From contig DAOVMD010000176.1 of the NCBI GenBank assembly GCA_030630935.1, forward strand, positions 1 to 6,599: a DNA stretch of 6,599 bases. The letters are read 5' to 3'. Origin of the DNA: Candidatus Mcinerneyibacteriota bacterium. GTDB lineage: Bacteria; AUK180; JAQVHJ01. How positions within the stretch are numbered: position 1 is the stretch's first letter; each line of letters opens with the position of its first letter. Shown here piece by piece: positions 2,940 through 3,537 of this stretch. Both the position numbers and the translations under genes were made by a program. The notes beneath the pieces were generated by a model, which was not told the origin of the DNA, did no database searches, and worked only from the letters and a program-made list of their open reading frames with translations.

Positions 2940-3068
2940 CTATATAACTGCGCATACATAATTCGTCACTAAAAAACATTATTTTCAGTTGCACGATTGG
3001 TCAATTGACCAATCGTGCAACTGACATGAATAATAATTATGTCGAAAGACTTATGCGCAGTTATATAG
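2940..3068. repeat. 129-nt nested palindromic element (MITE-like)
   Basis: The outer arms are a perfect 17-bp inverted repeat, CTATATAACTGCGCATA (2940-2956) and its complement (3052-3068). The centre is a perfect 40-bp palindrome (2985-3024). The spacers of 28 and 27 nt are only partly complementary (TTCGTCA against TGTCGAA). Both palindromes share the same centre within half a base, so one strand could fold into a single long hairpin. Ends of TATATAAC...GTTATATA would suit a non-autonomous element inserting at TA, as for IS630/Tc1-type MITEs such as Correia elements; no transposase is present and a longer target duplication is not evident. Other readings are a bidirectional terminator or a recombinase/protein binding site. 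Confidence 0.75.
2985..3024. repeat. 40-bp perfect palindrome core
   Basis: Twenty-base arms, left arm TCAGTTGCACGATTGGTCAA, mirror exactly around the point between 3004 and 3005 with no loop. Long perfect palindromes with no spacer are unstable in many bacteria, so its intactness suggests recent arrival or function. It does not fit the integron attC consensus. Confidence 0.85.
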
Positions 3069-3173
3069 ATCTTCGATTCCCAATGACCCGGAACCACGCG
3101 CTTGCAAGAGATTGTCTGACAACTTGTGGATAAATTAAAACGAAAGTATTGTCATTAACGAATCGAAGATCTA
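3066..3173. repeat. second long imperfect palindrome, 108 nt
   Basis: A perfect 14-bp inverted repeat, TAGATCTTCGATTC (3066-3079) and GAATCGAAGATCTA (3160-3173), bounds it. Inside, AATGAC (3082-3087) pairs with GTCATT (3151-3156) about the same centre, and smaller dyads (CCAC...GTGG, TTGTC-T-GACAA) fill the middle. Its first three bases, TAG, are also the last three of the neighbouring palindrome, so the two elements abut or one inserted at the other's end. It is richer in G+C than the flanks. No coding capacity. Confidence 0.65.
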
Positions 3174-3263
3174 GCGAAGCGTCGGAAAGTGCGATAAACA
3201 GCGCACGAGCTTCCTCATTTTATTCGGAACAGGCTCCATAATCTCGCTTTAAAGAAAAACTTT

Positions 3264-3305
3264 AGATTGCCGCAGTCGTCGCAATACTCCTCCTTCGCAA
3301 TGACA
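3264..3305 (-). repeat. dispersed 'TCATTGCGA...GGCAATCT' type intergenic repeat
   Basis: On the minus strand the unit begins TGTCATTGCGAAGGAGGAG and ends GGCAATCT, with internal GCAAT/ATTGC dyads (3266-3270 against 3281-3285 and 3297-3301). From general familiarity, this pattern belongs to a widespread class of intergenic repeats in many unrelated bacterial genomes whose function is unknown. Partial relatives lie nearby: CGAGATTGCCAC at 2899-2910 and AGAGATTGTC at 3108-3117. Confidence 0.55.
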
Positions 3306-3314
3306 AAATGGAGC

Positions 3315-3411
3315 TATCGGACAGCCTCGCTAGGGTTCCGGGCTGCGCAAATAACGGATTATCGGAGAGCCTTCGCATTTCGCCACGATTATGAGCGCTG
3401 CAAATAATGTC
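3315..3411. repeat. degenerate tandem duplication of a 45-52 nt unit
   Basis: Each half begins TATCGGA[C/G]AGCCT (3315-3327 and 3360-3372) and ends near GC..GC..CAAATAA[C/T]G (3342-3356 and 3395-3409). The middles have diverged. The two copies are head to tail and adjacent. This looks like an old duplicated intergenic repeat; no frame is open through it. Confidence 0.4.
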
Positions 3412-3537
3412 TATTAACACTTTACACTTCGAGAACATGGCTTCCTATAAAACAGCAGCACTCGATTGGTTAAATCCTAACATATATTAGTAAATAGAGT
3501 ATCTATATTAAAATATTAATAATATACAAAAAAAATC

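Follow-up and report, generated by a model that had tools for sequence, protein, structure and literature searches.

An IS630-type MITE probably carrying an ArsR-type operator in a Candidatus Mcinerneyibacteriota genome

The double palindrome and its family of insertions

The window, the whole 6,599-nt stretch analysed here, is contig C349 of an uncultured Candidatus Mcinerneyibacteriota genome (G000; 3.16 Mb in 471 contigs, 80% complete). Positioned 295 nt past one open frame and 531 nt ahead of the next is a 129-nt double palindrome at 2940-3068, in which both inverted repeats reported in a preliminary description, outer arms of 17 bp and a nested spacerless core of 40 bp, were confirmed. 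The element contains no open reading frame of at least 50 aa and gave no Rfam match, and its strand folds at −41.3 kcal/mol versus −10.4 kcal/mol for shuffled sequences (z −11.9; none of 200 shuffles as good). The arm dyad falls on base 3004 and the core dyad between 3004 and 3005, the half-base offset being a consequence of the odd length of the element. Elsewhere in the window, two outer-membrane-like genes stand in tandem, the second of which (2070-2645) is interrupted by a stop (TGA at 2217-2219). The features of the locus are as follows.

2901-2942, + strand: left part of the host repeat entered by the MITE; with 3068-3087 attached, it matches L029:710-771, where the repeat is unbroken, at 92% over 62 nt
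2940-3068, no strand assigned: IS630-type MITE copy of the 129-nt subfamily, identified by its multiple copies, CTAG target and paralogous empty site
2940-2956, + strand: left terminal arm, CTATATAACTGCGCATA, with 17 of 17 positions paired with the right arm
2985-3024, no strand assigned: core, TCAGTTGCACGATTGGTCAATTGACCAATCGTGCAACTGA, a 40-bp spacerless perfect palindrome; putative ArsR/SmtB-type repressor binding site
3052-3068, − strand: right terminal arm, with 17 of 17 positions paired with the left arm; over 33 nt, its end of the element is 88% identical to the IS630 end on contig C22
3068-3087, + strand: right part of the host repeat, in the same joined comparison with L029:710-771

A search of G000 with the window region returned 74 matches, and the 15-nt arm, allowing at most two mismatches, matched 43 times versus 4 times for the reversed control. 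Pairing of these arms yielded 16 two-ended copies of 117-303 nt and about nine one-ended copies, about 25 in total, and all 21 copies checked were intergenic, lying outside open frames. The target C-TA-element-TA-G, with the TA duplicated, was found in 13 of the 16 two-ended copies; in the window copy the strict layout is C, TA (2941-2942), the element proper (2943-3065), TA (3066-3067) and G. A CTAG target with duplication of the TA is the habit of IS630. When the two flanks of each copy were joined by script and compared with the collected DNA, five copies proved to have a paralogous empty site in which CTAG occurs once, namely the window copy (at L029:710-771, as listed above) and those on contigs C458, C433, C4 and C175. 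Positions 3069-3430 of the window, together with L009, L029, L047 and L097, belong to another intergenic repeat family (CTAGATCTTCGATGCGCAATGAC and relatives) that often serves as a landing site of the MITE.

The sole PF13358 (DDE_3) match of G000 lies on contig C22, has a stop inside and is located ~100 bp from the arm sequence CTATGTAACTGCGCATAA. Translation of the fragment gives an IS630-family transposase (NF033545, 107 bits at a cut-off of 100; DDE_3, E = 3.8e-25; HTH_33). At its right end, the window copy is 88% identical to the 33 terminal bases of this insertion sequence copy, and the C458 copy, likewise at its right end, is 91% identical. The arm and the 33-nt end match beside this transposase therefore identify the element as an IS630-type MITE, and we regard its placement as a non-autonomous MITE of the IS630/Tc1-mariner superfamily as nearly certain. 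The small transposable element with TA-targeted insertion proposed in the preliminary description is thereby borne out by the many copies, the empty sites and the transposase gene beside the same arm, while its expectation of a transposase bounded by the same arms holds for one end only, the C22 copy being broken and its other end not found. This transposase, the only one of IS630 type in G000 (L077, 5240-6600), carries a frameshift and stops and is truncated beside what appears to be a fragment of another transposase; near its N-terminus lies GGTGCACGATGTCATG, which has 11 nt in common with a core half-site. Such a transposase would mobilise the element in trans, and present-day mobility is doubtful, since its only copy is truncated and carries stops.

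The core palindrome as a module of its own

Allowing at most three mismatches, a 28-nt core was found at 24 places in G000, versus 0 for the control. Where a two-ended copy has its core intact, 63-76 bp separate the centre of the core from one end and about 59-236 bp from the other. The common centre of the two repeats noted in the preliminary description thus holds, to half a base, for the window copy, where it results from an internal deletion, and it is no design feature of the family, because the core is far off centre in the longer copies. A second core type, CGATTTCGTATATACGAAATCG, sits in the 300-nt copies. A promoter inside the core was considered and rejected, the combination of TTGACC and a −10-like hexamer being not above chance.

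Several cores in G000 stand without arms, 26-82 nt ahead of the start codons of unrelated genes, among which no obvious common pathway was found:

C220: armless core upstream of an epimerase gene
C155: armless core upstream of genes for patatin and WG-repeat proteins
C386: armless core upstream of a gene for a protein with no Pfam match
C454: armless core upstream of a DUF3795 protein gene
C274: armless core upstream of a flavodoxin-like protein gene

Most of these armless cores, at least four in number, are followed by CTGACATATGTAAGTAAATAAAAAAAGG or a near relative and lie shortly before an ATG; this downstream stretch is absent from the MITE copies. The armless cores on C239, C301 and C460 retain MITE flank sequence. 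The core family also occurs without the MITE arms in five of the six relatives (G002-G006, of the same class), where the whole element used as query hit mainly the core, and the core pattern did not find it in G001, which belongs to the same family as the genome of the window. A general bacterial or viral repeat was rejected, as the core pattern was confined to three contigs of two uncultured MAGs in the genome contig collection, with no viral contig. The preliminary reading of ends and core as one recognised unit is thus not upheld, given that the core occurs without arms both in G000 and across the class.

With 29 G000 cores aligned on their centres, 94% of the pairs were intact versus 75% in shuffles, and the cells changed on both sides numbered 78, counted as sequences rather than events, versus a maximum of 34 in 500 shuffles. 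Positions just outside the core were 37% symmetric in MITE copies, the MITE and solo labels of the script being loose and given no weight here. Paired changes were seen even between near-identical copies, the window copy reading GATTGGTC...GACCAATC and the C458 copy GATTTGTC...GACAAATC. Cores remained palindromic in copies whose terminal arms had decayed; the perfection of the core is therefore no sign of youth, contrary to the preliminary suggestion.

Perfect palindromes beside small ArsR-family genes in related genomes

Across the class, the palindromes are associated with small ArsR-family genes, each gene type having its own palindrome. In G004, a 93-aa ArsR-like gene lies between two identical copies of GCACGGTTTCGTAATTGAGAAATCGTGC, and an ArsR gene of G006, 71% identical to its G004 relative, has the palindrome about 10 nt past its stop. 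With the 93-aa G004 protein as query against all seven genomes, 16 closer homologues (E at most 1.4e-9) were present among the fetched loci. Nine of these had a palindrome within about 150 bp, seven of them perfect (at least 18 bp) and those of G004 and G006 hybrid, and three more were accompanied by imperfect palindromes. Beside 14 more distant homologues no palindrome was found, except an unrelated AT-rich 24-mer at the doubtful match L153. As a background, 400 kb of G003, with simple AT repeats left out, contained nine perfect palindromes of at least 20 bp, six of which came from ArsR-linked families, versus none in shuffled sequence.

The palindromes differ among ArsR paralogues and agree among likely orthologues across genera (G003/G005 and G004/G006), and the outer core half GCACGAT is conserved across the class. 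The flanking genes encode HTH_5 winged-helix proteins of 93-99 aa (PF01022; NF033788, ArsR/SmtB family), the nearest solved structure being SmtB (E = 9.1e-11). A palindrome next to an ArsR/SmtB family gene was seen in G002-G006 and not in the genome of the window, where no close ArsR homologue was found (best match, 28% identity) in an assembly only 80% complete. This link of the core to ArsR-type repressor genes, not to a transposase, further counts against ends and core as a single unit. Five compact units of 377-447 bp, in unrelated neighbourhoods, consist of the gene with palindromes to either side:

L140:1374-1820: palindrome-arsR-palindrome unit
L143:1417-1815: palindrome-arsR-palindrome unit; flanking palindromes are direct repeats including their asymmetric flanks
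L148:1438-1814: palindrome-arsR-palindrome unit
L149:1447-1833: palindrome-arsR-palindrome unit; flanking palindromes are direct repeats including their asymmetric flanks
L164:1449-1853: palindrome-arsR-palindrome unit

Another palindrome family, CGTATSTTCGTATATACGAASATACG, is dispersed in G002 (nine), G003 (six), G005 (six) and G006 (one) and absent from G000, G001 and G004. Five of its copies are carried by a 250-bp dispersed repeat of G002 and G003, a second mobile-looking repeat with such a palindrome (at L192, L195, L200, L203 and L204, around 1501-1526; copies 86-98% identical). At L186:5541-5668 in G003, a single intergenic region holds palindromes of two different ArsR-linked families, spaced 62 bp apart. 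Immediately upstream of the core at L046 (C220) and L049 (C454), the stretch AAATATTTGGTAGAGNNTAATTNNTCAG is similar to the 3′ end of arsR from G006, and no longer arsR remnant was detectable beyond it at either place. A profile search for full arsR remnants beside the armless G000 cores gave none (best E = 0.38, at C220); the overall best value of that search, E = 0.013, fell on C20, at a core with MITE-like flanks.

A candidate mobile operator and its alternatives

Taking the family and its relatives together, we favour, as the reasonably probable account, an IS630-driven MITE that carries a probable ArsR-type operator, the core palindrome being most likely the operator of an ArsR-family repressor. 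The MITE arms correspond to the ends of an IS630-family insertion sequence in the same genome; the transposase, acting in trans, would cut at these arms and insert the element into CTAG, whose TA is duplicated. Inside the MITE, 63-76 bp from one end, lies a copy of the class-typical palindrome, of the kind that flanks, often on both sides, small genes for ArsR-family winged-helix repressors, and it is from such an ArsR locus that the MITE would have taken it up.

A local role in terminating transcription or as an RNA control hairpin, which the very stable fold and a T-rich tail at one of the three cores scanned might suggest, is so improbable that we reject it: no terminator-like tail follows the window copy or C220, and a multi-copy element with empty sites is refuted as a terminator in the main, by those empty sites above all. 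The preliminary description had likewise set a terminator aside, a judgement that the empty sites and the missing T-tail at the window copy support, and the single-copy structure with no empty site that it named as the alternative is contradicted by the copy number and the empty sites. It is rather unlikely that the element is a plain IS630-derived MITE with the inner palindrome as an internal hairpin, the armless cores as decayed MITEs and the ArsR link as incidental. Arms, target and transposase all fit such an element, as does the MITE flank sequence kept by some armless cores (C239, C301 and C460), but it does not fit with the armless cores of G002-G006, matched there mainly by their core, with the different common flank just upstream of the ATG at four or more armless G000 cores, or with palindromes that flank ArsR genes far above background.

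The palindromes might themselves be mobile, as palindrome-arsR-palindrome cassettes of about 380-450 bp and dispersed singles in a layout like that of REP/RAYT, with the MITE carrying one of them. That five cassettes in different neighbourhoods have palindromes to either side, that in two of these the flanking palindromes are direct repeats and that arsR 3′-end-like sequence precedes the palindromes at C220 and C454 is consistent with this scheme, which we nevertheless consider improbable, as the cassette proteins consist of 93-99 aa of winged helix only; to our knowledge, ArsR proteins have no catalytic domain. Mutation alone could also keep the core palindromic if replication template switching at hairpins rewrote one half from the other with no protein reader, and template switching is able to create and mend perfect stems (PMC8794818), in keeping with the paired changes between the near-identical window and C458 copies. 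We judge this very improbable as the explanation, because it leaves both the palindromes beside arsR genes and the class-wide conservation of GCACGAT unexplained. Template switching may act together with selection.

The palindrome-flanked genes belong to the same ArsR/SmtB family as the repressors SmtB, BigR and SdpR, whose operators can be compared with the palindromes described here. Known ArsR/SmtB operators are shorter imperfect repeats, whereas the palindromes here are perfect, spacerless and 26-40 bp long and often stand on both sides of the gene. REP/RAYT systems are alike in layout only, with dispersed short palindromes and a gene flanked by the same palindromes; that gene encodes a Y1/HUH transposase, whereas the genes flanked here encode HTH_5 winged-helix repressors and the palindromes are spacerless and few. 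The nearest known systems are RUP and the Correia elements. RUP of Streptococcus pneumoniae, with IS630-Spn1, is an intergenic MITE of about 107 bp with arms resembling an IS630 element of the same genome and TA at the target (PMC2229807, PMC3049150). The present element differs from it in sequence and host and has a 40-bp palindrome in common with repressor-gene flanks, whereas no functional DNA motif has been reported inside RUP. The Correia/NEMIS elements of Neisseria are TA-flanked MITEs of about 105-155 bp with long stems, putative promoters and a protein-binding site, in that case for IHF; here the putative site is of a different kind, a palindrome linked to ArsR-type repressors. The Correia IHF site is of unknown origin, and a review raises the question of chromosomal capture for sites of this sort (PMC2229807); in the present MITE the likely source of the site is visible.

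A literature search of incomplete coverage returned no report of an ArsR-linked set of perfect palindromes or of a MITE with an ArsR site. The main interest of the finding lies in the core, not in the mobile element, and it bears on whether bacterial MITEs capture and spread host protein-binding sites, the question raised for the Correia IHF site. The same palindrome family occurs in three settings, beside a likely regulator gene, alone before genes and inside a MITE, which, with the in-step change of the core halves, opens the mobile-operator idea to a direct test with short DNA probes and a small protein. More speculatively, and with clearly less confidence, the family of tiny ArsR-type proteins, every one with perfect palindromes of its own around it, could be self-spreading regulator cassettes. 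Their palindromes would have been acquired by unrelated mobile repeats, namely the IS630 MITE and the 250-bp repeat of G002 and G003, rewiring or titrating repressors across the genome. As the inner palindrome matches the flanks of ArsR genes in related bacteria, the element probably distributes a gene switch in multiple copies around the genome, and, the palindrome being probably a repressor operator, each insertion would plant a new repressor site between genes, to act as a decoy or, near a promoter, as a new control point.
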